A stretch of DNA of 64,000 nt from Acidobacteria bacterium RIFCSPLOWO2_12_FULL_68_19 (GTDB lineage Bacteria > Acidobacteriota > Vicinamibacteria > Vicinamibacterales > UBA2999), in NCBI GenBank assembly GCA_001767525.1, contig MELF01000024.1:1-64000 (forward strand), written 5' to 3'. The notes beneath the pieces were generated by a model. The model did no database searches, was not told the DNA's origin, and was given only the letters and a program-made list of their open reading frames with translations. This document shows, one piece after another, positions 1,626-26,240 of the stretch. Numbering within the stretch: position 1 is the first letter of the stretch; each line of letters begins with the position of its first letter. Both the position numbers and the translations under genes were made by a program.

Positions 1626-2552
1626 TCATCGATAATCCTGCCAGACGTCGACTCCCCTCCCTGCCACGCTCAAGTAGCCTGTCCGATAACTTGTGGTTGG
1701 ATTCGCCGTCGCGGAGACCGTCACAGTCCCGCTGCCGCTGCCGGTCGCCCCGCGAGTAATCGTCAGCCAGCTTGTCGCGCTCGTTGCTGTCCAACTGCAC
1801 GTGCTATAGGTGCTGACGTTGATGGTCCTGGTACCACCAGCCTTCGGTATCATGTCGGAGAATGTCGATGTCGGCGACACGCTATACGTGCACGCTGTCT
1901 GGGTGACCGTGATTCTCTGCCCTCCCACAGTTAGTGTGCCAGAGCGCTGAGCCCCGGTATTCCCACTTACCGAGAATGTCACGGTCCCGTTGCCGCTGCC
2001 CGTCGCTCCCTGTGTAATGGCCAGCCAGCTTGCCTGGCTTGTCGCCGTCCAGCCGCACGCGCTGGTAGTTCTGACACTGACAGTTCCAGTCCCGCCCGTC
2101 GCCCCCACGTTGACCGACGTCGGCGATACGGTGTAGACGCACCCGCTGGCTTGGGTAATCGTGAAGCTGCGCCCGGCGATTGTCAGGATACCTGTTCGAC
2201 CTTCCCCCGCATTGGCTGCAACCGAGTAGTTGACGGTGCCATCCCCCTTGCCACTATTGTTCGCGAGCGTGACCCAGCTCAACTCGACACCAGCCGCCGT
2301 CCAGTCGCAGGCGCCCGAAGAGGCCGTCACGATCACTGTTCCAGTGCCGGCCCCGGACCCGTGACTGCGGGAGGCCGGTGTAATCTCAAAGGTGCAAGTC
2401 GGCATGGTCGGGTAGCCTTCGAGTCTGTCTTTACATGCAGCAACGAGGCCGATTACCAAGACAGCGCCGAGGCAGGCAAGAGATTTCCGACCATTGGCGC
2501 AAAGCGCATGAGTAACGGCACGACGCCCTTTGCCTTGACAGTTACGAGCCAC
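1626..2552 (-). CDS. Secreted lipoprotein with three BACON-type domains
   Basis: The GTG start at 2552 is preferred because CGGAGGG lies about seven bases upstream; the frame also extends 14 codons further. The N-terminus is a lipoprotein signal with a basic n-region, a hydrophobic stretch and a lipobox ending VAAC, so the mature protein should be lipid-anchored outside the cytoplasm. Three roughly 80-residue repeats follow, each with a CxWTA core (CDWTA, CGWTA, CSWTA), a SWLxIT-type strand and a closing GxLTVGGxxxxVTQ-type strand. These are hallmarks of BACON, an Ig-like fold linked to carbohydrate, mucin or protein binding. It is the last gene of the minus-strand operon and is likely a surface binding module of that system. 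The ligand is unknown. Confidence 0.75.
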   Translation of the reverse strand: MARNCQGKGRRAVTHALCANGRKSLACLGAVLVIGLVAACKDRLEGYPTMPTCTFEITPASRSHGSGAGTGTVIVTASSGACDWTAAGVELSWVTLANNSGKGDGTVNYSVAANAGEGRTGILTIAGRSFTITQASGCVYTVSPTSVNVGATGGTGTVSVRTTSACGWTATSQASWLAITQGATGSGNGTVTFSVSGNTGAQRSGTLTVGGQRITVTQTACTYSVSPTSTFSDMIPKAGGTRTINVSTYSTCSWTATSATSWLTITRGATGSGSGTVTVSATANPTTSYRTGYLSVAGRGVDVWQDYR

Positions 2553-2607
2553 CTTCGTTCCCTCCGTGATCCAAAGAGGAGGATCCAGCCTCACTGGGAC
2601 CGCAGCA

Positions 2608-3582
2608 CTACCTTCCTGCCAGGCGCCACACGAGGTGGACGCCCCTGGTTGACGGCTCGACGCTCACTCGCACGTTCGATTCGTTCGCGGGGCTCCCGAT
2701 GGCCTGCCGTAAGACGAGATAGGCGACAGAGAAACTGGCAGTTGCGATAGATGCCCGCCGCCAGGTGTCGCGCCGTTCTTGGATCGGCTCGAGGTCAGAC
2801 CTCGGTAACTGTCGCTCGGCTACGGCCTTCTTGAGCTTGTCGTCTTCGACCAACGCCATCGCCAGGGTTCCACCGGCACCAATGAGGCCCAGCGTGAACG
2901 GTACCAGCGACAGGCGGCCGCGTCGAACCTCGATCTGGACGACCTGTGTCGCACCGCGTCCGACCTCGACCTGTTGGCGCACTGTCTGCTCGCCGCGGCG
3001 CAACGCCACCTGATGAACGCCGGGCTTGACCACAACGGGATTTGATACGTCCACCAGCACATCGTCCACCGTGACCTGCGCATCTCGCGGCGAAACCGTG
3101 ATTGTCAGCCAAGCCACCTGACAGATCTGATTGAAGCGGTCGACCAGACGTCGAGACATGAATCGCTGATCGATGACGAAGCTTGGTGCCACGGCGCACA
3201 GCGTTCGCAGGTCCTGATCCGCCTGATCCGGCTGGCCAAGATTCAATCGGATCTCGGCCCGATAACTGAGACTACACGCGAGCACCGCGGTCTCCACGAC
3301 GGTTCTGCGCGCATCTCGTGCGCGAAGACCGTCGATGATTTCTGAGAAGAGAGGGATCGTCTGAGGCTGGTCTTCGGTGCCGAACACTTTGACCGCGCTC
3401 GCGAAGTTTGGCGGGGCGGGCTGGCCGCCGGGCTGACTGCAGTTCGTAGCCGAGATCAGAACGCCAGACGGTCCTGCTCCGACCTGGGCCCGCGCGGGTC
3501 GGACGGTTGCTGGTACCAACATCACTGCAACAATCAGGAGGACGGCGCCCGCTGGAGTCGCAGTGAAGAGAGCGCTATGCAC
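2608..3582 (-). CDS. Secreted PEGA-domain protein
   Basis: The start is taken as GTG 3582 because a GAGGGAGGG ribosome-binding site lies immediately upstream; the frame extends further but that part looks non-coding. The product has an N-terminal signal peptide (VLLIVAVMLVPATV then a PARAQ cleavage region). A helical, TPR-like segment (about residues 75-150) leads to a PEGA domain (about 160-230; the WLTITVSPRDAQVTVDD strand and the KPGVHQVALRRG turn are typical). Next come a hydrophobic segment (LVPFTLGLIGAGGTLAMAL) and a charged tail. PEGA modules are found in surface and envelope proteins. It lies between the PPC-repeat protein and the BACON lipoprotein, so all three probably act on the envelope side of one complex. 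Confidence 0.6.
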   Translation of the reverse strand: MHSALFTATPAGAVLLIVAVMLVPATVRPARAQVGAGPSGVLISATNCSQPGGQPAPPNFASAVKVFGTEDQPQTIPLFSEIIDGLRARDARRTVVETAVLACSLSYRAEIRLNLGQPDQADQDLRTLCAVAPSFVIDQRFMSRRLVDRFNQICQVAWLTITVSPRDAQVTVDDVLVDVSNPVVVKPGVHQVALRRGEQTVRQQVEVGRGATQVVQIEVRRGRLSLVPFTLGLIGAGGTLAMALVEDDKLKKAVAERQLPRSDLEPIQERRDTWRRASIATASFSVAYLVLRQAIGSPANESNVRVSVEPSTRGVHLVWRLAGR

Positions 3583-3723
3583 GTCCCTCCCTCGTATTTC
3601 TACCGATCGAGACGATGCACACCTATGGTTACGTGTGGCCAGCCAAGCCCAGAGATGGTACGCAGGGCAGCGTGGAGAGGAGGCAAAGCACATCAACATA
3701 CGGCAGTCCTCATATCACCTTTC

Positions 3724-6480
3724 CTATGGCCGCCTTCCCATGATCTGCTGGCCGTCGGTGGTGACGTCTCTGGATATTTCTGTTCCACTCCCATCAGGCC
3801 ACCTGAACCGGAAATTGTGCGCGCCAACCGTGAGCGGCACCTCGTACGGTGGCTCATTACCCACGTAGACGCCGTTGATCCAGACACTGCTGGTGTTGGG
3901 ATTGCCGACTACGTTCACGCGACGTACTGGCGGCAGCGTGTGAACGAAGGTCTGACCCGCAGCCAGAGTCAGTGGGAGAGTCGTCGGGCGTACATAGAGC
4001 AGACTCGGCGCTCGAATTTCGACCTCATAGTTTCCGGCCGGCAGGCTCCTTTCGTGACTGAGGGCAGGTCCCGAGAGCTCACGGCCGAGCGTCACCCGAA
4101 TTGGATAATCTGCACGGATGATCAACCGTGCCGGAGCGGGCGGCGGAGGCGCCACTGGTGGAACCGGTGCCGGCGATGGCAGTGGAACCGGAGCTGGCGG
4201 TGGCAGAGGGTCGGGTCCGAACACCGCGGGCGGCCCGACTCGTGGCGTCCGCAGCAGACGCCCAAGCTGGTCGGGTCCGAACACCGCGGGCGGCCCGGAC
4301 CTGTCGGCGCTGCCGGGGGTCGGGACCGAAGGGGCGCTGCCATTCAGCGACAGCGTGTAGGCCCCACGTTGATTGGCCTCGTAGGCCTTGGCTTCAATCC
4401 GATAGGTTCCGGTGACTGGGAGCCGAATCGCGATGCGGGAATCGGTGCCGTCCGCATCGTCGTTCTCGGCCACGACCTTTCCGTCTGGGCCGACCAGAAA
4501 GAGGTACGCGTCGAACGAGGCTCTTAGTGCAATCGTCAGGCTCTGGCCAGCGCTGCCCTGGAAGGTGTATTGGTCTCCTTTGGAATTCCTCCACCGCGGA
4601 GTCTCGCAGTCGGCATCCGCCAGGACGCCCTTCACGGTCTGGCCAAGGCTGATCGCAAGCGGTGTGCAGGAGTCGAAGCGGTCGACTATGTCGACTATGT
4701 CGACTGACGACGCTCTCAGCGTGTAGGCCCCCCTTGCCTCGTCGCCATAGCCGACGGCTTCGACCGTGTATGTGCCCGTGGCCGGAAGCTGTGTCTGGAT
4801 CCGCGAATTGGTGCCGTCCGCATCGTCGTTCTCGGCGACGACGCCTCCATTCGGGCCGACGAGGAACAGGTATGTGTCGAACGGCCCCGTCATCGTAATC
4901 GTCACACTTTGGTCGGCGCTGCCCTGGAAAGTGTATTGGTCTCCTTTCGAGTCCCGCCGCCGTGGCGCCCAGCAGTCGGACTCGGTCAAGCTGCCGGCTA
5001 CTGTTTGTCCGAACGCGATTGCAGTTGACGTGCAGGGCGAGGTCATGCTCAGTGTATACGTCCCGCGCGCGTTGCCATCGAAACCAATGGCTTCGACCGT
5101 GTACGTGCCGCTGCTCGGGAGCTGCGTCTGGATACGTGAATTCGTGCCGTCCGCATCATCGTTCTCGGCCATGACGGTTCCGTCAGGGCCGAACAGCAAG
5201 AGGTACGTATCGAACGATGCCTTCATCGCGATCGTCGTACGCTGGCCCGCGCTGCCTTGAAAGGCGTAGCGATCACCTTTCGACGGCGGACGGCGTGAAG
5301 CGGCGCAATCAGCATCGCTGAGCATTCCCGTAATCGACTGGCCAGGTGTGATCGCCGCCACGTCGCACGGTGGGGGCGGAGGAGGTTCGACCGGAGTGGT
5401 CGCCGCCGTCAAACCCGTCGCGCCGGACACGGTCAATGTGTAATCGCCCTCTCCGTCGGAATAGGCCATTGCTTCGATGGTGTAGGTCCCGGCGGTCGGC
5501 AGGCGTATCTGAATGCGTGAGTTCGTGCCGTCCGCATCGTCGTTCTCGGCGACCACCCGCCGATCGGGACCGAGCAGAGCGAGATACGTGTCGAACGGAC
5601 TCCTCATGGTGACCGTGACGTTGTCGCCACCGGCGCCGTCGAAGGTGAAGATGTCGGCCCTGCCTCGTCGCGATGTCGCCGTGCAATCGTCGTCGGCGAG
5701 GTTGCCGGTGATTGGTTGGCCGGACACGATCGTTGTGGGAGCACATCCGGGGCTTGCAGGCGCTGGCGTAGACATCGAGCTTTCGGGAACCGACGAGGGC
5801 GTCGAGCTGAAGAGCCTCGAAACAGAGATGGCGAATATGACGACGGCCGGTCCCGCGCCGGCATACAGCGCGAACCTGGATTTCTTCCGAGTCGAAGGAC
5901 TCGGAACTGCGGCGGGGGGAGGGAGATCCGGGTCGGGGGCGACCTGTATCGAGCGTCGCGTCCGTCGGCGCGCGGCGGGCCGCTCCGGCGCCCCCTGGGC
6001 GGCGTTCTCGAGGCGTGCAAGCAGCTCGTAGGCGCGCGGGTGCGCCGGATCGATCTGGATCGCGTTCTCGGCCTCAGCCCGCGCGGCGCTCCAGTCCTGC
6101 CTCCGGAGCGCCTCTTCCGCGCCCGTCAGATGGCGATCGAGCCGTGCTTTCAGCTCCTCGCCCGGGGCCCCGTACCTAGTGGGAGGATTACTTGCCATCG
6201 GCCAGCATCCTGGCGCGCGCGATTGCGCGAGCTGCAACGAGTGGACCGGAGATGCTCCCGAGTCCGCCACGGCCGTGTGCTGCAGCTCATCGGCAGCGAT
6301 CGCCTTGACGAGGTGATCTGGTTCGGCCGGCAGCTCACGCTCGCGATGAGGCCAACCACAGAATCCACAGGTAGGCCCCTCATCGGAAACCCAGCACACG
6401 GCGCCGTCGTTGGGACAGTGCACAGGCGGCTGCTGAGACGAGACGTCCCAGGAGGAAGAAGTGTCGCCAGATGCGGTCAC
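3724..6480 (-). CDS. Zinc-ribbon/TPR/TM protein with four PPC domains and PEGA-like tail
   Basis: This is a 918-residue mosaic. Residues 22-41 hold a CxxxxxxC...CxxC zinc-ribbon-like motif (Cys22, 29, 38, 41). About 105-160 is TPR-like helix. A single transmembrane helix spans about 202-223. Four pre-peptidase C-terminal (PPC) beta-sandwich repeats follow between about 245 and 690, each with the signature AENDDADGT and a GTYxxEA strand. A Pro-rich linker carries a duplicated GPPAVFGPD segment, and two PEGA-like units end the protein (VWINGVYVGNEPPYEVPLTVG). No signal peptide is visible, so it should be a bitopic membrane protein with the ribbon/TPR part in the cytoplasm and the PPC part outside. 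The ATG overlaps the previous stop (ATGA), so translation is coupled. Zinc binding is inferred from cysteine spacing only. Confidence 0.7.
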   Translation of the reverse strand: MTASGDTSSSWDVSSQQPPVHCPNDGAVCWVSDEGPTCGFCGWPHRERELPAEPDHLVKAIAADELQHTAVADSGASPVHSLQLAQSRAPGCWPMASNPPTRYGAPGEELKARLDRHLTGAEEALRRQDWSAARAEAENAIQIDPAHPRAYELLARLENAAQGAPERPAARRRTRRSIQVAPDPDLPPPAAVPSPSTRKKSRFALYAGAGPAVVIFAISVSRLFSSTPSSVPESSMSTPAPASPGCAPTTIVSGQPITGNLADDDCTATSRRGRADIFTFDGAGGDNVTVTMRSPFDTYLALLGPDRRVVAENDDADGTNSRIQIRLPTAGTYTIEAMAYSDGEGDYTLTVSGATGLTAATTPVEPPPPPPCDVAAITPGQSITGMLSDADCAASRRPPSKGDRYAFQGSAGQRTTIAMKASFDTYLLLFGPDGTVMAENDDADGTNSRIQTQLPSSGTYTVEAIGFDGNARGTYTLSMTSPCTSTAIAFGQTVAGSLTESDCWAPRRRDSKGDQYTFQGSADQSVTITMTGPFDTYLFLVGPNGGVVAENDDADGTNSRIQTQLPATGTYTVEAVGYGDEARGAYTLRASSVDIVDIVDRFDSCTPLAISLGQTVKGVLADADCETPRWRNSKGDQYTFQGSAGQSLTIALRASFDAYLFLVGPDGKVVAENDDADGTDSRIAIRLPVTGTYRIEAKAYEANQRGAYTLSLNGSAPSVPTPGSADRSGPPAVFGPDQLGRLLRTPRVGPPAVFGPDPLPPPAPVPLPSPAPVPPVAPPPPAPARLIIRADYPIRVTLGRELSGPALSHERSLPAGNYEVEIRAPSLLYVRPTTLPLTLAAGQTFVHTLPPVRRVNVVGNPNTSSVWINGVYVGNEPPYEVPLTVGAHNFRFRWPDGSGTEISRDVTTDGQQIMGRRP

Positions 6481-7625
6481 GGGGTCCTCATCACGCCCTT
6501 GATGACGTCTAGAGGGGTTCCGTGATCGAATCTCGCGATTGCCGGCTTCGTGGTCAGGATCCTTTCTCCCACAAGCGGTTCACGTTCATCCTTGAGTTCA
6601 AAAAAGAGCGTGAAATCAGGATTCCAGATCGTTCCTTCACCGAGCACAAGCCAGAACTCACTTGCTTTGGTTCTTCGAAATCCGATCAACTTGTTTGCGC
6701 TCGTGCCTTCATTGAACTCGAATTGTCCGCCGCGAGTCACAAAAGAGCCCCAACGCACGCCCTGCCGAGTCGCCTGTTCTGTCAGCGATTCAAGAGTCAT
6801 GGAACCCTGACAGTACGCATCGAGTGGCAACTCCGTCTGGCGACTTGAGCCTCTGGGCGAGTCGGCCGAGGTGGCAATGGCGGGAGTTTGCCAACTCTTG
6901 GGTATCTCACCATCGCCGAAAGATTCCGATTCGATTTCCTTTGGCGTGCGTGTACCTGCTTTGGGCTCGATGCGATCATCAAGACTTTTCAGGGCGCGCA
7001 GGATGTCATCGGTGGCCTGAGAGCGCGCGACGTGCTTATCTAGGTAGCTAATGGTGACACCAAGGTTGGCCAGCTTGCCACCAAGGTTGGCCAGCTTGCT
7101 TTGTTGCTTGAACGAGATGACGATAAGCGCGAGTATCCCAACTGAGCCCAGCGCACCCAGCACCAAGAGCAATACGGATACAAATTCAGTTTGTTGATCG
7201 CTTGGCCGTGCAGCTACGCCGTTGCCGGAAAGCCTGATCCTCATGAGATCGTCGTCCACCGTCAGCTCAGCGTTGTGACGCCCTTCATCTGTTGGAGAGA
7301 ATGTCACAGCGATCTCGCACGTAGTGCTCTGATCAGGCCAGGCGCACGATGGATTGGCGGCGACGAATCCATGGTCCGGGGTGACTTTGATCGCCAATGC
7401 CGGCAGCTTTTGGCCATCTTGGTCGGTCAACGTGATTGTCTTCTCGGATGCCGTGTTTACCGGCTGGTCACCAAAGTCGATTGCGGATACGCCTAGCGCT
7501 CGTGGCTCTAGTGCGTCAGCGGACCCGGCACCCTCCTGAGCAGCTCCTAGCGATGCTCCCCAGGTGACAAACGCGAGGCTCAGAACGAGACCAACGGTCG
7601 AAATGACAACGACGAGACGGGCCAT
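6477..7625 (-). CDS. Membrane protein with signal sequence and ASPM/SPD-2/Hydin-like Ig domain
   Basis: The 382-residue product starts with a signal peptide (LVVVISTVGLVLSLAFV). Residues about 45-135 form a choice-of-anchor/ASH-type beta-sandwich (VSAIDFGDQPVN, then TCEIAVTFSPTDEGRHNAELTV). A transmembrane helix follows at about 150-170 (VSVLLLVLGALGSVGILALIVI). The C-terminal half starts with a short coiled coil containing a duplicated KLANLGGKLANLG segment and continues into an unrecognised 200-residue domain. Topology is therefore outside-Ig, one helix, inside domain. It follows the Hsp70-like gene by three bases and overlaps the next gene by four, so it belongs to the same transcript. I do not recognise the cytoplasmic domain. 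Confidence 0.65.
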   Translation of the reverse strand: MARLVVVISTVGLVLSLAFVTWGASLGAAQEGAGSADALEPRALGVSAIDFGDQPVNTASEKTITLTDQDGQKLPALAIKVTPDHGFVAANPSCAWPDQSTTCEIAVTFSPTDEGRHNAELTVDDDLMRIRLSGNGVAARPSDQQTEFVSVLLLVLGALGSVGILALIVISFKQQSKLANLGGKLANLGVTISYLDKHVARSQATDDILRALKSLDDRIEPKAGTRTPKEIESESFGDGEIPKSWQTPAIATSADSPRGSSRQTELPLDAYCQGSMTLESLTEQATRQGVRWGSFVTRGGQFEFNEGTSANKLIGFRRTKASEFWLVLGEGTIWNPDFTLFFELKDEREPLVGERILTTKPAIARFDHGTPLDVIKGVMRTP

Positions 7626-7628
7626 GGC

Positions 7629-10091
7629 TTATACGCTCACCAACTGCTTCTGCAGCTCCGCCTTCAGGCCATCAGTGACTTTACGAACCGGGTGGCTAGG
7701 CGCGCCGTCCTCGTTGGCTAGGATGGCAGCAAGCCCGGCGCGATAGTTAAGTTCCACGTCCTTATGAATTTGGGCCTCGTGTCTAGCATCCGGGTGGAAC
7801 CCCAGGAACCCCACAACGTTATGCAACGAGTCTCGCAGGCACTGATCGAGTTGCGCCGTTGTAGAAGCGTCCACGTCACGGCGTTGAAGGCGCCTTGCGG
7901 CGGCTTTGTCGTAGCGCGAGGCCCAGGCAATCGGAGGAGTTGCCGTCTTGACGTCGGCCCACCAGAGCGTGTTAAGCGCTAGGCTGTCTATAGATTCTGG
8001 AACAAACAGGGCGCCCTTGCAGACGGAGAGCTTGGCGTCGTTACTAGACCCCCAATTGAACGTCACGTCTGCGTTTGGCGCGACGGCCTTCGCCGCGCTT
8101 GTCAGGATGCGGCGCGAGACCTCGACACGATTCATCAGGCCCTTGACTACAGGAGCCAATTCAAACAACCGCGATCCCAAACCCGAGAACCAGACCCACA
8201 TTCGCTGCGCCTCAGGAACCTCGCTGCGACTGGTCGTGCCTGGGAGCGCGGCCATCTTGATCCCATACGACGTCGCCAAGGTGAGCAGGATGAGCATCTC
8301 TGCGAGGGTCCCCGACAGGCCAGCCATGGCCATCCTCGAGGCGATGGCTTCCAAGCCATCTCTTGCGGCCATGCGCCGCACAAGCAGTTGCTGCACAATG
8401 CGGGCCTCCGGTTTTGGGTTGGGAGGCGTCTTGTCAAACAGACGCTGCCAGACCTGATCGGAGTTTGCGCCATTCTTGTCAGCGTACGAGATCAACATTG
8501 GAGCGAGATCCTTACCCCCTATGTAGAGCGAATCCAGGAACAGTGGATCCCCTTCGCCTGTAAAGACGCTGATGTCTGTGGTTCCGCCACCAATGTCTAC
8601 GACGACGTGGCGTTCCGCTGGCGACCGGCTTCCTTGGTTCTTGACGGTCGTGCGAATGAGGTAGTAGTTCGCAAGGCTTTCGGAGACGAGGCTGTCGCGA
8701 CTGGTGACACGGAGGCCGCAACTGGTAAGGCTGTCTCCAAAGGCGATGGTCGCTTGCTTCAGGCTCTCCATTTGGTGGTACGTGAAACTGAGTGGGCAGG
8801 TAAAGACGATGTGAACGTTCCTCATCGTTCGGTAGACTTTGTTGGTGCGAAGCTCGCAGGCGACGATGAGTCCCAGATTTTCTAGAAACGCAGAACGGTA
8901 GTCGGCGCCAGCCTCGTCGTCCTGCCACTTGAACTCCTGCTTTAGACTATTCTGTCTCTTGGACGCCAAAGTCCAGATATCATCGTCGGTGAACGTATCT
9001 CCGGGGATGCACCGCGCAGGCAGGAGTTTGGAATTGCTGAAAGTGCGGTCGTCGAACTCGACAAGCAGCGTTGACAGCGGGTTACGAAGAGGAGTTGAGA
9101 AGGGAAAGAAGCCCTGTCGGCTGATGGGCCAGATGCGGGGATTGAGGCCTGCTTCCTCAGTAAGGTTTACGGCGAGAGTGTTCTCTGAGAACGACAGGAC
9201 TTCCGATTCTCCATCGTCCGTGCCGATGGCCACAGCGGTGTTCGTTGTGCCGAAATCCACTGCGACGTTAAGGCGGCGGCCCGCCTCTGTTTGGGCAGGG
9301 AGCCTTAGGTCGCCAAAGGAGGATCGCTTCGCGCTGATACGAGAGAGACTGATGATACCGTCCGGAGGGGAGACCACGATCGGCAGTAGGCCATGGCATA
9401 GGCCATGGTTCTCCCGATCGAAAAAGCCGATGGCCCGCGGAACCGTCTCAGAACGACACACAGCCTGCACGTCGTCATTTGATACGGCGGTCTCACCTCG
9501 AAGGAGTTCTCCGTCGCGGCCCAAGTACAGAATCGACGGCTCAATAGCGGACCTGTCGGCGTCGAGGGGCCGCGCGAAGGTCTTTACCTGCTGGCTCACG
9601 AGCTCCGGGGTCCCTGTGCTGAACATGAAATAGAAGCTCTTCCACTCGGGGATCACCCGTCGAGGCCACGCCGCCACTCCCAGGGAGAACTCGGCGACCT
9701 GGTACTTGCGAGTGATAAGAACTCCACCCCAGTTGATCTGAAACGATGCTTCCGGCTGCTGGGTTCGCCAGTTCGTGGCCATTCGCTGAATCACAAGGTC
9801 GATGAGCTCTCCAGGGAGTTTTTTGAACAACGCTTGATTGATGGGATAGCAGGGGAAGCCCTGGACGGTGTACAGAAGCTTGGTGTCGGTCCAGACCTCT
9901 CGCTCGAATACCGGCACAGCTCCTTGCACCGGCACACCACCGACGTCGATGAATTTCTGGCCGTCCTCGGTGAGCGGTGGGTTGGAGTCGATTGGGACGT
10001 CCGTACGCCACTCCTGCCCCTTTGTCGCAGGCGAGACGCTCTCCGGGATCAGCCAGAATTCCTTGTCGTTGAGCTTCAAGACTCCAGGCAC
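7629..10091 (-). CDS. Hsp70/actin-fold ATPase with extra N-terminal domain
   Basis: The 820-residue product (GTG 10091; the frame could also start at 10145, overlapping the upstream gene by 47 bp) contains an actin/Hsp70 ATPase core. The phosphate-1 loop is VAVDFGTTNTAVAIG (about residues 278-292). Phosphate-2 is VVVDIGGGTTDISVF (about 496-510). A later segment, VWFSGLGSRL, fits the adenosine-site position. The first roughly 270 residues are not Hsp70-like and I do not recognise them. There is no recognisable substrate-binding domain, so it is closer in architecture to SrfB-like or ParM-like ATPases than to a DnaK chaperone. The gene lies directly behind a tubulin-like gene, giving one operon with both actin-fold and tubulin-fold NTPases. 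The nucleotide-binding call is secure; the role is not known. Confidence 0.7.
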   Translation of the reverse strand: MPGVLKLNDKEFWLIPESVSPATKGQEWRTDVPIDSNPPLTEDGQKFIDVGGVPVQGAVPVFEREVWTDTKLLYTVQGFPCYPINQALFKKLPGELIDLVIQRMATNWRTQQPEASFQINWGGVLITRKYQVAEFSLGVAAWPRRVIPEWKSFYFMFSTGTPELVSQQVKTFARPLDADRSAIEPSILYLGRDGELLRGETAVSNDDVQAVCRSETVPRAIGFFDRENHGLCHGLLPIVVSPPDGIISLSRISAKRSSFGDLRLPAQTEAGRRLNVAVDFGTTNTAVAIGTDDGESEVLSFSENTLAVNLTEEAGLNPRIWPISRQGFFPFSTPLRNPLSTLLVEFDDRTFSNSKLLPARCIPGDTFTDDDIWTLASKRQNSLKQEFKWQDDEAGADYRSAFLENLGLIVACELRTNKVYRTMRNVHIVFTCPLSFTYHQMESLKQATIAFGDSLTSCGLRVTSRDSLVSESLANYYLIRTTVKNQGSRSPAERHVVVDIGGGTTDISVFTGEGDPLFLDSLYIGGKDLAPMLISYADKNGANSDQVWQRLFDKTPPNPKPEARIVQQLLVRRMAARDGLEAIASRMAMAGLSGTLAEMLILLTLATSYGIKMAALPGTTSRSEVPEAQRMWVWFSGLGSRLFELAPVVKGLMNRVEVSRRILTSAAKAVAPNADVTFNWGSSNDAKLSVCKGALFVPESIDSLALNTLWWADVKTATPPIAWASRYDKAAARRLQRRDVDASTTAQLDQCLRDSLHNVVGFLGFHPDARHEAQIHKDVELNYRAGLAAILANEDGAPSHPVRKVTDGLKAELQKQLVSV

Positions 10092-18288: not shown

Positions 18289-18295
18289 GGCGGTG

Positions 18296-19900
18296 ATGAC
18301 GAATCTGCAGGATCCATCGGCGGCGTCGTCAGGTCAGGCCTCGGATCGCAGCACCGAGCTTGCGGCGATGATCCTTGGCATGGCCGACGCGACCCTCTAT
18401 CGCACGAATGCGTTCCGCCTCGTCGGCGCCCCGGTTCATGCGACCGCACGCGAGATCGCACGACGGTTCGAACGGCGAAAGCTGGCCCACCAAGTGGGGA
18501 CGGCCGTCGCCGCCGCGGCGGGTCCGCTCGCGCTCGATCCGCCCCCGGATGCGGCCACGGTCCATCAGGCCGTGCACCGGATCCACGACCCGGAGCGTCG
18601 CCTCATCGAAGAGCTCTTCTGGTTTTGGCCGGTCGATGACACACAGGGTCCGGATCCTGCGCTGGAGGCTCTCGAGCGCGGCGACACCACTACGGCGATT
18701 GCCATCTGGCGGGGCAATGATTCCGACGGGATCGGCGTCCACAATTTGGCCGTGCTCTTCCACGCGCTCGCGCTCGACCTCGAATCGTTGCCGCAGTCGC
18801 TCGCGCGCGACCCGCAGCGGCGGCGCGATCGCTGCTGGCGGGAGAGCTTCGCCCACTGGCAGCAGACGATCGATCGCGAGCAGTTCTGGAGCCGGTTGAC
18901 CCAGCGTATCCGCGAGCTGGACGACCCGCGCCTGACCACGGGCACGACGCGGAGCATTCGCGCCAGCCTTCCGACCGCACTTCTCTGCATCAGCGCGCGC
19001 CTGGCGATCTCGGCCGCCGAACGGGGCGCCGACGAGGACAGCGCCCGCCACGCCGGCTTGATCGAGGAAAGCGGGTTGGGTGCGGATGCCGCCGAGCGCG
19101 CACTCGAGACCATCCTCGAGCCGATCCGCCAGCGGGTCCTCACCCTGTGCCGGGTCGCCGAGCCGGCCGCGTCGGCCGATCCCGCGAACGCGCACCGCAT
19201 TGCCGAACAACTGCTCGATCAGACGACACCGCTGCTCGACTCGCTGACGTTCCTGCGCGACGGCCATCCGATGCGCGAAAGCGCTCATGACGAGGTCGCG
19301 CATTGCGCACTGGCGTGCCAGATCACGTACGGCAACAAGACGCAAGACTGGGAGACGTCGCTCCGGCTGCTGACGTGCGTCCTCGCCGTGTGCAGCAGCG
19401 CCTCCGCGCGCGCTCGGGTTGAAAGCAACCTTCAGGTCGTCAAGGAGAACGTCGCCTTCGCTCGGGAATCCGGCCGGTGCTGGTTCTGCGGCACCGCCAA
19501 CGCTGTCGAATCCGCCGCGGTGGAGGTGAAGCTCCACGGCAACGAACGTCGTGTCCAGGAGTGGGACGGGGAGCGCCTCCTGTGGAACACGCTGACCGTG
19601 AAGGTGCCGCGGTGCGGCACGTGCAAGACGACGCAATCTCGCGCAACCGGGTGGGCGGTTGTCATCTTCATCGTGTCCACGGCCATGGGCTTCATTTCGA
19701 GCGGTGCGGGGCCTGAAGACGCCGGTGCTGCGGTTGTTGGGTTTGGAGGCCTGATCGCCGGCGGGATCGCCGCTGCGGTGACCCACAACTTCCTCATGGG
19801 AGGCGTGAAGCCGAGCGGGGCCGCCCCGTCGTTCCCCGCGGTCAAGCGGAAGCTCGATGAAGGCTGGAAGCTGGGCGAGAAACCAGAGGGGGCGCAGTGA
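18296..19900 (+). CDS. J-domain-like protein with zinc ribbon and membrane segment
   Basis: The start ATG 18296 lies eight bases after the kinase stop, behind GAGGCGG. Residues about 25-95 (LYRTNAFRLVGAPVHATAREI to IHDPERRLIEELFWFWP) resemble the J-domain-like module used by cryptic Hsp70 partners, although the HPD tripeptide is not obvious. A long helical middle (about 100-380) follows. A zinc-ribbon pair (CWFCGT, then CGTCK) brackets a short beta segment near 395-450. A hydrophobic region near 455-495 looks like one or two membrane helices. Together with the GrpE-like and DnaK-like genes next door it suggests a dedicated, membrane-attached Hsp70 cycle. The J-domain assignment is tentative without an HPD motif. 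Confidence 0.55.
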   Translation: MTNLQDPSAASSGQASDRSTELAAMILGMADATLYRTNAFRLVGAPVHATAREIARRFERRKLAHQVGTAVAAAAGPLALDPPPDAATVHQAVHRIHDPERRLIEELFWFWPVDDTQGPDPALEALERGDTTTAIAIWRGNDSDGIGVHNLAVLFHALALDLESLPQSLARDPQRRRDRCWRESFAHWQQTIDREQFWSRLTQRIRELDDPRLTTGTTRSIRASLPTALLCISARLAISAAERGADEDSARHAGLIEESGLGADAAERALETILEPIRQRVLTLCRVAEPAASADPANAHRIAEQLLDQTTPLLDSLTFLRDGHPMRESAHDEVAHCALACQITYGNKTQDWETSLRLLTCVLAVCSSASARARVESNLQVVKENVAFARESGRCWFCGTANAVESAAVEVKLHGNERRVQEWDGERLLWNTLTVKVPRCGTCKTTQSRATGWAVVIFIVSTAMGFISSGAGPEDAGAAVVGFGGLIAGGIAAAVTHNFLMGGVKPSGAAPSFPAVKRKLDEGWKLGEKPEGAQ

Positions 19901-19901
19901 G

Positions 19902-20429
19902 ATGTACGGCGTTGCCGATCTGAGACAGCTCCTGTACCCACGCGAGTTCCGAATCGCCCCGCCGCCCTGGTCGGCGGACCTCTCGGCCTTGCTTGGGCAG
20001 TTGGCGCAGCAGGCGCCCGCTGTTCGTGGGACGGAGGCCGACGCGGCGTCCCCGGCCGTCTCGGTCGAGTTCCTCGCCGACGTCTGCACTGGTCTTTGGA
20101 GGCTGCGGCAGCGGATGTTCCAGCCGGGTACCGATCGCCCGCTCGACGAGATGAAGCGTGCCTATCGGCATCTGGAGTCGACATGGGACGCGCTCACGCA
20201 GGCTGGCGTCGAGATCATCGACCATACGGGTGTTCCGTTTGACGCCGGGCTGGCGCTCAAGGTCATCGCCTACCAGCCGCTGCCGGACGTCAGCCGCGAG
20301 CGCGTTCTCGAAACTCTGAAGCCCACGGTGTACTTCCGGCAAGAGCGCCTCCAGATGGGCGAGGTTATCGTCGCAACACCCGAGGTCACGGCCGTTGAGT
20401 CGGATCAGGACCGGTCAGCACGGACGTAA
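19902..20429 (+). CDS. GrpE-like nucleotide-exchange factor
   Basis: From ATG 19902 (one base after the previous stop) the product has 175 residues. Its C-terminal part has the GrpE head-domain pattern: a GVEIIDHTGVPFDAGLALKV segment matching the GrpE motif with PFDP, then strands ending in LQMGEVIVATPEV. A helical N-terminal half (LAQQAP to LESTWDALTQAG) would take the place of the GrpE coiled coil. It sits directly upstream of the DnaK-like gene, as grpE often does. Sequence identity to housekeeping GrpE is clearly low, so it is best seen as a specialised exchange factor. Confidence 0.6.
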   Translation: MYGVADLRQLLYPREFRIAPPPWSADLSALLGQLAQQAPAVRGTEADAASPAVSVEFLADVCTGLWRLRQRMFQPGTDRPLDEMKRAYRHLESTWDALTQAGVEIIDHTGVPFDAGLALKVIAYQPLPDVSRERVLETLKPTVYFRQERLQMGEVIVATPEVTAVESDQDRSART

Positions 20430-20452: not shown

Positions 20453-22954
20453 ATGGATCGTACGACAATCGACTACGGCATCGACCTCGGAACGACCAAC
20501 AGTTCTATTGCAATCATTAGGGGTGTCAGGCCCGAGGTGTTCCGGAACAATGAGGGGTCCGAGTACACGCCGTCGGCCGTATGGATCGACTCGAAGGGCA
20601 CGCTGCATGTAGGGCGGCGCGCCAAGGAGAACATCGAGAAGGATCCGGAAAACGGCTTCTGCGAGTTCAAGAAGGCGATGGGCGCGCATCGCGAATACGT
20701 CTTTCAGCGGAGCGGCCGGCGCTTCACGCCTCCCCAGCTCTCCGCGGAGGTCCTCAAGTCGCTCAAGGCCGACGTGGAGCAGCGCAGCGCCGAACAGATC
20801 ACAGCAGCGGTGATTACGGTTCCGGCGGGGTTTGACCTGCCCCAGAACGCCGCAACCAGCGAAGCGGCCAGCCTCGCCGGATTTGCCGAAAGTTCGCTTC
20901 TCCAGGAGCCTGTCGCCGCGGCGCTCGCTTACGGATTCCAGAGCGACAGCGACCGTGTCTTCTGGCTCGTCTACGATTTCGGAGGGGGCACGTTCGACGC
21001 TGCGCTGGTGCACATGCGAGACGAGTCTATTCAGGCGCCCAACCACGGAGGCGATAACGATCTCGGGGGGAGCCACTTGGACTGGGCGATTGTCGAGCAG
21101 CTTTGGATTCCTGCACTCTTGAAGGATCGGCGCCTGACAGACTTTCGTCGTGGCAACCGAAAGTGGATTGCGGCCATTGCAAAGCTGAAGTGGGAGGCTG
21201 AAGAGGCGAAGATCCGGTTGTCACGTGAATCTACGGTCGACGTCTGTATCGAAGATCTGTGCGGCGACGATCGCGGTGAGCGGGTCACGTTCGAGTGCGA
21301 ACTCACCCGTCAGGACGTGGAGCGACTGGCTGAACCGCTGATCCTCCGCTCGATCAACATTTGCAGAAAGGTCCTGGCGGAGCAACGCCTGGGCGCGGGC
21401 GATGTCGAAAAGGTGCTGGTCGTCGGCGGACCAACGCTCGCCCCTTACTTCAGGGTCCGCCTGAGCCATGAACTCGGTATTGCCCTCGATTTCGAGAAGG
21501 ACCCGATGACGGTCGTCGCGCAGGGTGCCGCTGTCTTCGCCGCCATGCAGCCCCTGAAGACGGGGCCGACACGCCCGGTGGCGTCAGGCAGCTTCACGCT
21601 GCACCTGCTCGACTTCAAACCGGTCGGTAGCGACCCAGAGCCACCGATCGGCGGACGCGTCGAAGCACCGGACGCCCGGGATTTTGGGGGCTGGACGATC
21701 GAATTCGTCAACAGCGACGCGCGTCCCGAATGGCGCAGCGGCAAAGTGGGCCTGGGTCCTTCAGGTGGTTTCATGACGAACCTGTGGGCGCAGAAAGGCT
21801 GTGCCAACACTTTCCTTATCGAGCTACGGGACCCGTCGGGGCGGTTGCAACCCGTTCATCCGAACAGTGTGACCTACACAATTGGCATCGGCATTTCCGA
21901 TGCCCCGCTGACCCATTCCGTGGGCGTCGCCTTGGCGAACAATGAGGTCGAGTGGGTGCTCAAGAAGGGAACGCCGCTGCCTGGCCGAAGACGCACGGTC
22001 CTTAGGACGGTGCGGGAAGTCCGCCGTGGAGAGACAGGCCAGATGATCCGGATTCCGGTCGTCGAGGGACAAAACCGCCGTGCCGATCGGAACCAGTTGA
22101 TCGGGCAGCTTCAAATCGCAGGCTCACAGGTCGAACGCGACGTCCCCGTTGGGAGCGAGGTTGAAGTCACCATCGCGATCGACGCCTCGCGCCTTGTCCT
22201 GACCAAGGCCTATCTTCCGATTCTCGACAAGGAGTTCGACGCCAAGATCAGCTTCGACGACTACCGAAAGCGTGCCGCGGACCCTGCGGAAATGGAGATG
22301 GATCTGCAGCGTCAGAAGAAGCGGCTCGAGGAGGCACGGCGCAAGGCGGCGGAGACGCCTGACGCGCGGGCATCGGCGGCGCTACAGCGGATTGACGGCG
22401 AACGGCTCGTGTACCAGGCCGAGACCGCGCTTGCCGCCGCGGAGGGCGATCCCGATGCCGCCGACCTGTGTAGCAAGCGGTTGCTCGATCTGAAGGCAGC
22501 CATCGACGAGGTTGAGGATGCGCTCGAGTGGCCGGCGCTCGTCGCGGAGGCGGAGAAGGAAATCGAGGTGGAACGTAGGATCATTGCCGAGCCGAGCCAC
22601 AACGCCATCCCCGAGGAGAAGGCAGCGTTTGCGACGCTCGAACGGGAAATCAGGGAGACGTTTGCGACACGCGACGTCGAGGCGTTGAGACGGAAGCTCG
22701 TCGAGATGGATCGGCTCGGCCTCATCATCATGTTCAGACAGCCCGGCTGGTGGGTCGGGCAATTTCAACACCTGGAAAAGAAGAAGGCGACGATGACCAA
22801 CGCTGCCCAAGCCGACCAGTATTTGGCCCAAGGCCGTCGCGCGATCAACAACGATGACTTCGACGGGCTCCGCGCCGCTGTGCGGCAGCTCGCCGGCTTG
22901 CTGCCGGCAGACGATGCCGAGCGTGATCGGCTGTTTTCGACAGTGGGCAGGTAG
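20453..22954 (+). CDS. DnaK-like Hsp70 with an insertion and long C-terminal coiled coil
   Basis: The 833-residue protein is much longer than housekeeping DnaK (about 640). The ATPase domain (about residues 1-375) is canonical: YGIDLGTTNSSIAI, VPAGFDLPQNAATSEAA, LQEPVAAALAYG, VYDFGGGTFDAALV and VLVVGGPTLAPYFR. A substrate-binding-like beta domain follows, recognisable at TIGIGISDAPLTHSVGV and KKGTPLPG, but about 100 residues containing a separate beta-rich insert lie between it and the ATPase core. The last 230 residues are charged helix (EMDLQRQKKRLEEARRKA). GGAGAGACGCGC precedes the ATG. With the GrpE-like and J-like genes upstream it forms a private Hsp70 set; ATP-dependent client binding is predicted. 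Confidence 0.8.
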   Translation: MDRTTIDYGIDLGTTNSSIAIIRGVRPEVFRNNEGSEYTPSAVWIDSKGTLHVGRRAKENIEKDPENGFCEFKKAMGAHREYVFQRSGRRFTPPQLSAEVLKSLKADVEQRSAEQITAAVITVPAGFDLPQNAATSEAASLAGFAESSLLQEPVAAALAYGFQSDSDRVFWLVYDFGGGTFDAALVHMRDESIQAPNHGGDNDLGGSHLDWAIVEQLWIPALLKDRRLTDFRRGNRKWIAAIAKLKWEAEEAKIRLSRESTVDVCIEDLCGDDRGERVTFECELTRQDVERLAEPLILRSINICRKVLAEQRLGAGDVEKVLVVGGPTLAPYFRVRLSHELGIALDFEKDPMTVVAQGAAVFAAMQPLKTGPTRPVASGSFTLHLLDFKPVGSDPEPPIGGRVEAPDARDFGGWTIEFVNSDARPEWRSGKVGLGPSGGFMTNLWAQKGCANTFLIELRDPSGRLQPVHPNSVTYTIGIGISDAPLTHSVGVALANNEVEWVLKKGTPLPGRRRTVLRTVREVRRGETGQMIRIPVVEGQNRRADRNQLIGQLQIAGSQVERDVPVGSEVEVTIAIDASRLVLTKAYLPILDKEFDAKISFDDYRKRAADPAEMEMDLQRQKKRLEEARRKAAETPDARASAALQRIDGERLVYQAETALAAAEGDPDAADLCSKRLLDLKAAIDEVEDALEWPALVAEAEKEIEVERRIIAEPSHNAIPEEKAAFATLEREIRETFATRDVEALRRKLVEMDRLGLIIMFRQPGWWVGQFQHLEKKKATMTNAAQADQYLAQGRRAINNDDFDGLRAAVRQLAGLLPADDAERDRLFSTVGR

Positions 22955-22957: not shown

Positions 22958-23857
22958 ATGGCAGGCGCAGACCTGACAGCGGCCGGCGGCGATAGCACCG
23001 CACAGTTCGCCTTGAGTCAAGTCGTCCGGACCCAGGCCGCAACACTGGCGCGGCACAGTCGATATGCGGCAGCCGAAGCGTTGATCACGCAGAACGGGCT
23101 TCTCGGCGGGGCACCGGACCTGCTCGACCTGCTCGCGCGCGTCTATGCCCAGCAGGGGCGGTGGCGCGACGCGGCGGAGGCATGGACGCGCGTACTGGCG
23201 GTCAATCCTGGACACGCTGATGCGCTGGCGGGCCTTCGACGTCTCACGGCCTTGCAGGCGCGCGCCGGGCGCCGTGGTACGCGTGTCGTGTTCGCGCTTG
23301 GTTGGGGGATCCTCGTTGCCGCATTAGTCGCATCCGGGTGGTCCGCCACCGAATCCTTCCGCCTGCTGAGGGCAGACCTTACGCGAGCGCTCACTCGAAA
23401 CGCGCCAGCCATACCGGCTCCCCAGCCCGCCGGCGCGCCGGACATCCCGCTGTTGGAGCCAGGGACGCGTGTGACGGCGAACGGCTCGGAGCTCGTCGTG
23501 TCATTCGACGACGCGCTGTTCCAGCGCGGCACGCGGTTGGCGTCAGGTGCTCGCCAACGGCTGCTCGCGCTCGGAAGTCGACTGGAGCCGTACGGAACCT
23601 CCATTTCAATCGTTGTCGTTGGGTACACGGACGCGCTCCCGGTTCCCCCCGGTAGGCGGTATCGCGACAACGCTGCTCTGGCGCTCGCGCGCGCCAGCGT
23701 CGTGGTCGACGTCCTGCGCGAGGGGGGAAGTCTGCCGCCTCAGGTATTCTCGCTGCGGGCGTTCGGCCCGGCAGGCGGAACGGAGCGCGGGCCCCAAGCG
23801 CGCAGGACCGCCGAGATTTGGATTACACCGGCGCGAAGCTACGAAAGCGCGCCGTGA
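22958..23857 (+). CDS. TPR / transmembrane / OmpA-like protein
   Basis: The 299-residue product starts three bases after the dnaK-like stop. Residues about 15-100 form TPR-like helices (YAAAEALITQNGLL; RWRDAAEAWTRVLAVNPGHADAL). One membrane helix follows (about 112-132, VVFALGWGILVAALVASGW). The C-terminal domain (about 185-295) is OmpA/MotB-like, with a GYTDALPVPP loop, an RDNAALALARASVV helix and a final RRTAEIWI strand. Predicted topology is TPR in the cytoplasm and the OmpA-like domain in the periplasm, where it would hold peptidoglycan. That makes it the likely wall anchor of the chaperone complex. Its end overlaps the Clp ATPase start (GTGA). Confidence 0.75.
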   Translation: MAGADLTAAGGDSTAQFALSQVVRTQAATLARHSRYAAAEALITQNGLLGGAPDLLDLLARVYAQQGRWRDAAEAWTRVLAVNPGHADALAGLRRLTALQARAGRRGTRVVFALGWGILVAALVASGWSATESFRLLRADLTRALTRNAPAIPAPQPAGAPDIPLLEPGTRVTANGSELVVSFDDALFQRGTRLASGARQRLLALGSRLEPYGTSISIVVVGYTDALPVPPGRRYRDNAALALARASVVVDVLREGGSLPPQVFSLRAFGPAGGTERGPQARRTAEIWITPARSYESAP

Positions 23858-26124
23858 CCACCGGCAGTGCTCCGATGCCCGTCACCCACAACGCCGTCGC
23901 CGTCGCACTGGCGCTTTCGAACCTGGAAGCGTGCCTCTCGGGAGGCGCTTCAATCGAGCCGATTCATTTATTTGCCTCGGTGCTGAGCATCGTCGACGGC
24001 GTGTTCGTCAACGAAGCGCGGCGCATCGGCCTCTCGTCCGAGTTGATCGCCTCTGCGGAAGCGGCGGGCCGTTCCGCGCGCGAAGTCGCGGGCTTGTCCG
24101 ATCAGGATCTCACCGGACTTCGACGCCGGGTCTGGACGAGCCTGCGCGCCGACCGCCAGACCCATCCGGTAGGGCCCCTCGAGCTATCGCCCGCCACGAG
24201 GGACGTGATCCGGCAGGCGTCGGGCCTGGCCCGCGAAGCCGGTGATCGGACGGTCACTGTTCGTCATCTGCTCCTGTTATTCCTCCGCCAGCCTCCAGCG
24301 GTCGTGCGGCCAGACATATCGCCCGGAGAACCCGGCCGCACCCGTGGGTCGGCCGTGCCTGTCGAAGTCGTCGCCGGCACGCCAGTTCGAGATCTGACAT
24401 CCCTCGCGAAGGCGGGTCGCCTCGCGCCCGTCGTGGGCCGGCGCCGCGAGATCAAGGCGCTGGCTCGATATCTCCAGCGCACGTCGAAGCGTAACGTCCT
24501 GCTGCTCGGGGAGGCTGGTGTCGGAAAGACGGCCGTTGTCGAGGGGCTCGCGCAACGCCTCGCCGAGCCGCGCGCGCCGGAGTTTCTTCGCCGGCTCAAA
24601 CTCGTGCAGATTGAAGTCGCGGATCTTGTGGCGGGAACCGCCCATCGCGGCGAGCTCGAGCGACGACTTCGCCAACTGATTGACCAGGCGACCTCCGATC
24701 CCGATCTTGTGCTGTTCGTCGATGAGATCCATCTGATTATGGGTGCGGGTGCCAGCCAAGGTGCGCTCGATGTCGCCAATATTCTCAAGCCCGCCCTGGC
24801 GCGCGACACCATCCGGTGCATCGGCGCTACAACCACGGACGAATTCGAGCGACACATCAAGCCCGATGCCGCGCTCTTGCGGCGGTTTCAGGTGCTCCAC
24901 GTCAGCGAGCCCTCGCCGGAGGAGGCGCTCGAGATGTGCCGCGCGTGGGCGCGCCGCATCGAGGCCGCGCAGCAGGTCGTCATCGACGACGACGCCATCG
25001 AAGCGAGTGTGACGCTCGGGGCGCAGCTCATCGTCGGGCGGGCCCTGCCGGACAAGGCGATTGATCTCCTCGAGAACGCGGCAGTGTTCGCCAAGATCTC
25101 GTCGATCTCGTTCCAGGCGGTCGCGCCGACCAAGGACCCGCCTAGAATCGGCCGCGCGCACATCGAATCCGTGTTGTTCGAACAGTACGGTGTCTCCGCC
25201 AGGGCGGCGGAGGCGCTTGACGCGGCGACGATCGAATCCGAGCTTCGCCGCGAACTCGTGGGGCAGGACGACGCGATTGTTGCCATTCGGTCAACCCTGG
25301 AACGCATCCATCTTCGGTCGCCTGAGGCAACGCGGCCGCTTGCAGTGCTCCTGTTCGTCGGCCCGACGGGCGTCGGGAAGACCTTTGCTGCGGAGCTCCT
25401 GAGTCGTGCGATGTTCGAACACAGCGCGCAGCACTTCGCGCGAATCAACATGAGCGAGCTCAAGGAACATCACGAGCTTGCCCGACTGATCGGCGCGCCG
25501 CCGGGATTCATCGGACATGATCGGCCTGGCGCACTCTTCGAGTTCACCGAACGCCACCCGCAAGGGGTAATTTTGCTCGACGAGATGGAAAAGGCTCACC
25601 CCGCCATTCAGGACTACTTCCTACAGATCTTTGACAAGGGCGAGGCAGCCGACTCACGCGGTCGCAAGGTCACGTTCGGCCGGTACATGTTTGTGTTGAC
25701 CTGCAACCGCATACGCTCCGGCGCGGTGGCACCGATAGGATTCTCCGCCAACACCCCCCCAACCGTGACGCCGGCAGCCGTCGACGATCTGGCCGTGCAC
25801 TTCCGTCGTGAGTTCCTCGCGCGGATGGACAATATCGTGACCTTCCGGCCGCTCGAACGGCCCGATTATGCCAGGATTCTCGATCGACAGCTGTCGCGCC
25901 TTACCGCTGAAGTGGCATCCCGGACCGGCGCACGCCTTGAGGTGCCCCAGGCCGCCTGTGAGCGCTTGGTCGACTTGTGTATGCCTGGACAGGAAGGGGT
26001 GCGCGGCTTCGTCAGGCAGCTCGAACAGTTGCTGGCTGTACCGCTGTACGCATTCTTGAGTGAGAAGTTGGTCCCGACGGTGTCGGTCGACGTCGCAGAT
26101 GATCACGTGATCTTCGCTACATGA
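23854..26124 (+). CDS. Two-ring Clp/HSP100 AAA+ ATPase
   Basis: The GTG at 23854 overlaps the upstream TGA, giving 756 residues. A Clp-N-like helical domain occupies about 1-135. AAA ring 1 has Walker A GEAGVGKTA and Walker B LFVDEIH; ring 2 has GPTGVGKTF and ILLDEME. The region between the rings is short and lacks the long coiled-coil M-domain of ClpB. In ring 2, at the position of the ClpP-docking loop of ClpA and ClpC, there is an IGF tripeptide (APIGFSANT). It could therefore be a ClpA/C-type unfoldase that docks to the housekeeping ClpP, or a ClpV-like motor. It closes the Hsp70-like operon. ATP-driven unfolding is a safe prediction; the substrate is unknown. Confidence 0.85.
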   Translation: MTTGSAPMPVTHNAVAVALALSNLEACLSGGASIEPIHLFASVLSIVDGVFVNEARRIGLSSELIASAEAAGRSAREVAGLSDQDLTGLRRRVWTSLRADRQTHPVGPLELSPATRDVIRQASGLAREAGDRTVTVRHLLLLFLRQPPAVVRPDISPGEPGRTRGSAVPVEVVAGTPVRDLTSLAKAGRLAPVVGRRREIKALARYLQRTSKRNVLLLGEAGVGKTAVVEGLAQRLAEPRAPEFLRRLKLVQIEVADLVAGTAHRGELERRLRQLIDQATSDPDLVLFVDEIHLIMGAGASQGALDVANILKPALARDTIRCIGATTTDEFERHIKPDAALLRRFQVLHVSEPSPEEALEMCRAWARRIEAAQQVVIDDDAIEASVTLGAQLIVGRALPDKAIDLLENAAVFAKISSISFQAVAPTKDPPRIGRAHIESVLFEQYGVSARAAEALDAATIESELRRELVGQDDAIVAIRSTLERIHLRSPEATRPLAVLLFVGPTGVGKTFAAELLSRAMFEHSAQHFARINMSELKEHHELARLIGAPPGFIGHDRPGALFEFTERHPQGVILLDEMEKAHPAIQDYFLQIFDKGEAADSRGRKVTFGRYMFVLTCNRIRSGAVAPIGFSANTPPTVTPAAVDDLAVHFRREFLARMDNIVTFRPLERPDYARILDRQLSRLTAEVASRTGARLEVPQAACERLVDLCMPGQEGVRGFVRQLEQLLAVPLYAFLSEKLVPTVSVDVADDHVIFAT

Positions 26125-26240
26125 TGCCCAAGCCGAACTCGCACAATCGGCGGACGTGGATCGACAATTCCACCAATCCGGTGACAATCTGGTACGTCGA
26201 TCACAACGGCTATGTGGTGCGGATCCAGCCGCTCGAGTAA
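26121..26240 (+). CDS. 39-residue ORF coupled to the Clp gene
   Basis: The ATG at 26121 overlaps the Clp stop (ATGA) and opens a 39-residue frame ending at TAA 26238. The product begins MMPKPNSHNRRTWID and contains an aromatic core (VTIWYVDHNGYVVRIQPLE), giving a basic, single-sheet-like microprotein. Overlap with the upstream stop and the end-of-operon position argue that it is translated. No family is recognised. Possible roles include an adaptor or a client of the Clp ATPase; both are guesses. Confidence 0.45.
   Translation: MMPKPNSHNRRTWIDNSTNPVTIWYVDHNGYVVRIQPLE

Follow-up and report, generated by a model that had tools for sequence, protein, structure and literature searches.

The 64,000-nucleotide stretch of DNA analysed here (the window; contig MELF01000024.1 of Acidobacteria bacterium RIFCSPLOWO2_12_FULL_68_19) carries two long divergent operons, on the minus strand at 1626-14603 and on the plus strand at 15844-26124, which had been described in an earlier reading made from the sequence alone and were borne out by open reading frames (ORFs) and domain matches. 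That sequence-only reading took both operons for one island encoding a membrane-spanning machine with cytoskeletal nucleoside triphosphatases (NTPases). According to our analysis, the island probably consists of two independent modules, adjacent only locally in the genome of the window. The first is a minus-strand core (~7.6-14.6 kb) composed of genes for a vWA lipoprotein, a multi-transmembrane (multi-TM) protein, a tubulin-like GTPase (tub) and an actin/Hsp70-fold ATPase, which would form an envelope-anchored tubulin-actin machine; the second is a separate plus-strand operon of chaperone genes.

The division into two modules was supported by the distribution of both gene sets. A protein search detected the tub gene in two of 193 genomes of the class and a profile search in 13 of the 396 from the phylum, while the gene at the J position of the chaperone operon was found in four of the 396 phylum genomes. 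The genome of the window was the only one with both, and the J-position gene was not found in any of the 11 tub-positive relatives tested. Likewise, seven of the eight chaperone-operon genes gave no match at 1e-5 in the 79 named tub loci described below, with flanks of up to 10 kb; the kinase was omitted from this test, as it belongs to a very common family. When all proteins of the window were compared by tblastn with the fetched relatives, the core was recovered and the chaperone set was not, the kinase and one weak Hsp70 match excepted. Conversely, the eight plus-strand genes are all present, and in the same order, in genome G050, and six are present but rearranged in genome G013, in neither case with a tub gene nearby, and no homologues of the BACON, PEGA and PPC genes of the window were matched opposite the G050 chaperone operon. 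Since the chaperone operon exists elsewhere without tub, and tub loci exist without chaperone genes, the adjacency observed in the window is local. The sequence-only reading had itself proposed to look for co-occurrence and conserved order in other genomes, and had named rare neighbourhood as the outcome that would speak against a single island; this was the outcome obtained. A single envelope machine, in which the chaperone genes would assist the tubulin/actin module, is thus rejected by co-occurrence as highly improbable and largely refuted, despite the adjacent and divergent arrangement of the operons, the Hsp70-fold and bitopic proteins present in both and the Hsp70/SrfB-like protein encoded two genes behind the tub core in genome G506. 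The part of the proposed membrane-spanning machine that is retained, with good support, is the minus-strand core, in which the two NTPases would lie inside and the lipoprotein and other envelope parts outside. This core is conserved across phyla and is joined by envelope accessories that differ between lineages; the plus-strand operon is not a part of it.

To define the core, 84,980 species genomes were scanned with a five-row subset of the tub alignment as the query, which yielded 195 relatives; locus counts were taken from the best 80 of these and comprise 79 named loci. As relatives were picked by two peptide patterns, the phylum counts are no census. Among these 79 best loci, 62 were cyanobacterial, four alphaproteobacterial, three acidobacterial, three from Aminicenantes and two from Nitrospirae, with single loci from KSB1, Poribacteria, Chloroflexi, Sericytochromatia and one archaeal contig. 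The latter, a euryarchaeal locus (L123), nested among the cyanobacteria, is probably a mis-binned contig. All but two of the 62 cyanobacterial sequences (60/62) fell into one broad clade, which suggests long retention in that phylum. With locus hidden Markov models built from the acidobacterial and NIES-970 sets, an actin-like ORF was found in 76 of the 79 loci, and in 72 of those 76 it lies directly behind tub. Of the 64 loci whose upstream DNA exceeds 2.5 kb, 50 have an upstream vWA gene at a distance of no more than 1.6 kb (21 on the same strand and 29 divergent, the divergent ones nearly all cyanobacterial), a multi-TM ORF was present between vWA and tub in nearly all loci, and one small upstream protein family was common to 72 loci. 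The core order was also kept in the tub-positive genomes of the phylum, whose tub proteins are 18-41% identical to that of the window, and on a plasmid of Synechococcus NIES-970, where all four core genes are annotated as 'unknown protein'. A plasmid or phage origin was discarded, with this single plasmid match and zero phage matches. In genome G452, tub and actin form one open frame of 1689 amino acids with a short linker (L036/L037; G452:C112:18884-23953). As a separate observation, ~3-4 kb separates tub from an unusually long actin-like ORF (1354-1388 amino acids) in L074 and L093, perhaps as a result of an insertion.

The large tubulin-like GTPase of the sequence-only reading was confirmed at the level of the family, while the window protein itself matched no Pfam model, with no match to PF13809 (Tubulin_2) at E up to 1. 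Among 12 tub homologues, nine matched PF13809 (best 1e-11) and six PF00091. In 77 of 77 full-length tub homologues, the glycine-rich T1 and T4 nucleotide loops were present (patterns GG[STN]G and G[GA][TS]G[AST]), with invariant columns in the tub alignment (A2). The model of the window protein was poor (predicted local distance difference test, pLDDT, 59) and was replaced by a family model from a 53-row alignment, of 494 residues, with a pLDDT of 90.8 and a predicted template modelling score of 0.93. The top Foldseek match of this family model was FtsZ. By VIA-align, it matched FtsZ (1rlu) with Z 17.6 and a root-mean-square deviation (rmsd) of 3.0 over 196 residues, and CetZ1 with Z 17.6 and an rmsd of 3.4 over 204 residues; among the 50 VIA matches listed, all were FtsZ, CetZ or tubulin. 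Tub therefore resembles FtsZ, CetZ, TubZ and tubulin in its modelled GTPase-domain fold and its T1/T4 loops, which place it as a predicted member of the FtsZ/tubulin superfamily, and differs from them in an identity of ~10-20% in the structural alignments and in matching over residues 1-335. The extra C-terminal region of the window protein was shared, among aligned homologues, only with those of G438 and G503.

Regarding the partner ATPase, the profile of the actin-like family matched MreB (1.7e-8) and, more weakly, DnaK. The phosphate-1 motif DxG[TS] was present in 65 of 66 actin-like proteins and the phosphate-2 motif in 58 of 66; in cyanobacteria, phosphate-1 reads DFGTSFT rather than DFGTxN. 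These two motifs, shared with MreB, FtsA and Hsp70, point to membership of the minus-strand ATPase in the actin/Hsp70/MreB superfamily. The predicted Hsp70/actin fold first read from the sequence agrees with this superfamily and can be refined, as phosphate-2 is best matched by MreB/FtsA and phosphate-1 by DnaK. In contrast with MreB, FtsA and Hsp70, the actin-like proteins are ~760-1170 amino acids long and have a long N-terminal region covered by no known family. SrfB was rejected as the actin-like family, since only one of 11 members matched, at E 0.084. Ordinary ftsZ and mreB are located elsewhere in the genome of the window, so that the tub and actin-like genes are extra members of both superfamilies.

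Further genes recur in the vicinity of the core. TM proteins similar in size to the product of 6477..7625 also follow actin in other loci, and CGW ribbons resembling that of the protein encoded at 3724-6480 in the window lie behind the core in G503 as well as in cyanobacteria. Fifteen loci have a MotA/ExbB/ZorA-like gene 3' of the core, and in 13 of them an OmpA/MotB/ZorB-like gene comes next; the 15 loci are from Acidobacteria, Aminicenantes, Nitrospirae, KSB1, Poribacteria, several cyanobacteria and Roseomonas. Most of the OmpA/MotB/ZorB-like proteins keep the MotB-type aspartate at the start of the TM segment. In PADLOC, the Roseomonas locus (L126) matched ZorA1 at 1.4e-40 and ZorB1 at 6.8e-71, and the KSB1 locus matched ZorB1 at 8e-16; the ZorA matches of the latter were weak and largely to the coiled-coil tail, and its MotA_ExbB Pfam match (0.0011) was below the curated cut-off. 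Two other arrangements were noted: the cyanobacterial cores L066, L069, L077 and L098 are followed by a zinc (Zn)-ribbon (CxxCGW-like) and paralogous repeated proteins, and the Hsp70/SrfB-like protein of G506 (L029:3467-6343), which contains Zn-ribbons, is encoded two genes behind the actin-like gene.

The core was then compared with systems that have been described. Makarova and Koonin (2010) reported FtsZl1 operons with vWA proteins, a P-loop GTPase, kinases and OmpA proteins (PMC2875224). The tub-actin core shares with these FtsZl1/Tubulin_2 systems a divergent FtsZ-like GTPase, a vWA protein and membrane proteins, as well as OmpA-family proteins in some lineages. However, in FtsZl1/Tubulin_2 systems the P-loop GTPase is frequent and the tubulin is mostly coiled-coil, whereas tub in the present core is constantly paired with an actin-like ATPase. 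The tub family model is compact, its longest helix having 32 residues, and has no extended coiled-coil middle region. An ORF with a GTPase signature was found within 5 kb in one of 91 loci, where its Der/EngA-like motifs represent a chance match, and Hsp70, DnaK, MreB or an actin-like partner are all unmentioned in the main text of PMC2875224. Kaur et al. (2020) described GTPase systems in which tubulin/vWA and HSP70/GrpE/DnaJ are separate themes (PMC7159879). Both themes, a membrane-proximal character and Zn-ribbons are points of likeness between these GAP1-N2/DO-GTPase systems and the present genes; nevertheless, their core consists of a TRAFAC GTPase, GAP1 and FNIII, and their tubulin and HSP70 themes do not overlap, in contrast with the tub-actin core, which combines a tubulin-like with an actin-fold protein in nearly all cases. 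Pfam searches of the two operons of the window gave no match to GAP1 or DO-GTPase. Santana-Molina et al. set the Tubulin_2 proteins apart as a divergent and sparse group (PMC9871819). The tub-actin set is a clade without the GTPase and with a constant actin-like partner that the texts of PMC2875224, PMC7159879 and PMC9871819 do not mention.

The 15 relatives with a MotA/ZorA-like gene, 13 of them also with an OmpA/ZorB-like gene, also resemble Zorya and MotAB. However, Zorya genes other than these were not recognised, the motor is missing from the window and from most cyanobacterial loci, and described Zorya systems do not include the tub-actin-vWA core. Tubulin was unmentioned in the ZorAB/MotAB papers searched, and a search of open-licence PubMed Central for Zorya or ZorA together with tubulin gave one review only.

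Taking these comparisons together with the gene context, the assembly we favour, and consider probable in conjunction with the two-module structure, would work as follows. The tubulin-like and actin-like proteins would form one cytoplasmic assembly driven by NTPs and controlled by GTP and ATP, which the multi-TM protein would hold at the inner membrane. Together with the TM protein, bitopic accessory proteins could relay the state of this assembly through the membrane to wall-binding accessories and to the vWA lipoprotein. The metal-ion-dependent adhesion site (MIDAS) of this lipoprotein may bind a partner at the wall or the outer membrane, and in some lineages an ion-driven stator of the MotAB/ZorAB type would power or anchor the same complex. 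We propose only tentatively that this constitutes an undescribed envelope machine with an obligate tubulin-GTPase/actin-ATPase pair, membrane-anchored, linked to vWA and driven by an ion motor in several phyla. Several observations weigh against such an assembly: the structural matches of tub are confined to residues 1-335 of a model of 494 residues, the DxSxS motif was found in no more than 38 of the 57 full-length homologues of vWA, the tub-actin fusion is known from a single incomplete genome, most cyanobacterial loci have no motor genes, a ZorB match is absent in the genome of the window, and the vWA gene of the window contains a stop codon.

Another possibility, which we regard as quite open though short of probable, follows the proposal of Makarova and Koonin for FtsZl1: the core would be a machine for envelope remodelling, for vesicles or for cell-surface functions. 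The vWA lipoprotein and the multi-TM, OmpA/MotB-like and immunoglobulin (Ig)/PPC/PEGA/BACON proteins cluster with the core, PF13809 relates its tub to the family of PMC2875224, and the core coexists with ordinary FtsZ and MreB; however, this function is drawn from gene context only, and the sparse distribution weighs against an essential envelope role.

The copy in the window raises a question of its own. The vWA lipoprotein gene read from the sequence is present and is not intact: an in-frame TAG (14088-14090) falls between the two MIDAS halves, with DxSxS upstream and T-D downstream. The vWA homologues of G438 and G503, whose tub proteins are 40% and 38% identical to that of the window, read through this site. 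Recoding of TAG is unlikely, since TAG also terminates neighbouring genes; an assembly error and a nonsense mutation are the two explanations of the codon. With a vWA gene split in this way, the window copy may be defective or non-functional, and this core may be dead although the family is not. The window copy could also be a horizontally acquired remnant in decay, an idea that deserves consideration but that we would not call probable. The TAG between the MIDAS halves and its use as a normal stop by neighbouring genes would agree with decay, an IS66 element flanks the tub operon, and the core was not found in the same-genus and same-family genomes searched; on the other hand, the reading frames of tub, actin, the TM protein and the accessory proteins are uninterrupted, and the TAG may be an assembly error.

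Somewhat less likely, in our opinion, is an anti-phage or biological-conflict system in which an envelope sensor triggers NTPase assembly, with a Zorya-like motor in some lineages. Kaur et al. (2020) predicted that tubulin/vWA and HSP70 GTPase systems are conflict systems (PMC7159879), and the ZorA/ZorB-like genes 3' of some cores, the patchy distribution in the class (two of 193 genomes) and the IS66 beside the tub operon would fit this role. However, the core proteins gave no PADLOC match worth calling, by which a known defence system was ruled out for the core; no nuclease or other effector was seen, the composition of the core is fixed, with no swapping of effectors, and the single broad clade of 60 cyanobacterial sequences suggests long retention.

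With regard to the plus strand, its genes suggest a separate Hsp70-Clp quality-control operon controlled by a sigma factor and a kinase. The sigma factor, kinase, DnaK-like, OmpA-like and Clp proteins named in the sequence-only reading were all matched, the Hsp70 protein at 1.2e-77 to PF00012, in line with the presence of the Hsp70 nucleotide-binding domain. Its labels 'J-like' and 'GrpE-like' were not sustained: neither protein had a Pfam or NCBIfam match, and the labels stem from position beside Hsp70, gene order alone being suggestive of J and GrpE roles. Identities to G050 were 57% for the sigma factor, 39% for the small ORF, 67% for the kinase, 43% for the J-position protein, 62% for the GrpE-position protein, 63% for Hsp70, 37% for OmpA and 49% for Clp. 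In G503, a DnaK-like protein with 36% identity along its length is encoded on a contig other than that of the tub core, with no other chaperone-operon gene beside it. It was also observed that in G013 (G013:C182, L048) the J-position protein and the Clp unfoldase appear in one open frame of 2530 amino acids.

The features of the window are compiled in the table. The Ig-like, PPC, PEGA and BACON proteins attributed to the minus strand were recovered to different degrees: four PPC and three BACON domains were matched, the PEGA match was weak, and the ASH/HYDIN-type Ig match in the 6477..7625 protein was below the curated cut-off. The start of the actin/Hsp70-fold gene was refined, using homologues, to a GTG at 10091.

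Features of the two operons and their flank in the window
Feature	Position	Strand	Remarks
IS66 Orf2 (TnpB)	56..625	-	mobile-element flank, immediately left of the island, beside the tub operon
Secreted lipoprotein-like protein, three BACON domains	1626..2594	-	
Secreted protein, weak PEGA match	2608..3699	-	G167 homologue lies 3' of the core
Accessory protein: Zn-ribbon (CGFCGW), TPR, TM, four PPC, weak PEGA	3724..6480	-	
Bitopic accessory protein: signal peptide, ASH/HYDIN-type Ig, one TM, cytoplasmic tail	6477..7625	-	
Actin/Hsp70-fold ATPase (predicted)	7629..10091	-	motifs DFGTTNT and DIGGGTTD; profile matches
Tubulin/FtsZ-like GTPase (predicted), Tubulin_2/FtsZl1-related	10099..12372	-	homologues, family model
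Small multi-TM membrane protein	12376..12885	-	constant gene immediately 5' of tub
vWA-domain lipoprotein gene	12897..14603	-	two ORFs, 14088-14603 and 12897-14063; unbroken homologues in G438 and G503
Small secreted protein, no family assigned	15084..15632	-	between the two modules; membership uncertain
Sigma-70 family sigma factor	15844..16584	+	first gene of the chaperone operon
Small protein	16611..17078	+	kept in the G050 chaperone operon
Ser/Thr protein kinase	17185..18288	+	67-69% identical to G050 and G013
Zn-ribbon/2-TM protein, J position	18275..19900	+	
Small protein, GrpE position	19857..20429	+	without family match
Hsp70/DnaK-like protein	20453..22954	+	63% identical to G050 and G013
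TPR-TM-OmpA protein	22958..23857	+	
Clp/ClpV-like two-AAA unfoldase	23818..26124	+	

Elsewhere in the genome of the window (G000:C12; L131:5071-6144, plus strand), a second FtsZ paralogue of 357 amino acids was observed, with an intact GGMGGGTGTGG loop and a start resembling a twin-arginine translocation (Tat) signal (MTVSRRQFLVLAGAGITSLPYLPTARG). The class matches listed were 31-39% identical and nearly all begin well after the Tat-like segment; among them, the exported-looking N-terminus seems, by sequence, to be peculiar to this genome. A 1175-amino-acid protein with a STAND-like look and TPR repeats (L131:740-4267) adjoins this FtsZ.

It is unusual in bacteria for a conserved gene pair to link, in nearly all cases, a tubulin-fold NTPase with an actin-fold one. 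To the Tubulin_2/vWA systems that papers of 2010 and 2020 had predicted, the tub-actin core adds a variant in which an actin-like partner replaces their GTPase. As the core is present in Anabaena, Arthrospira, Microcystis and Synechococcus, genera of cyanobacteria that have cultured members, it is amenable to testing. The link to ion-driven stators in some phyla suggests how a membrane motor might work as a single device with cytoskeletal NTPases.

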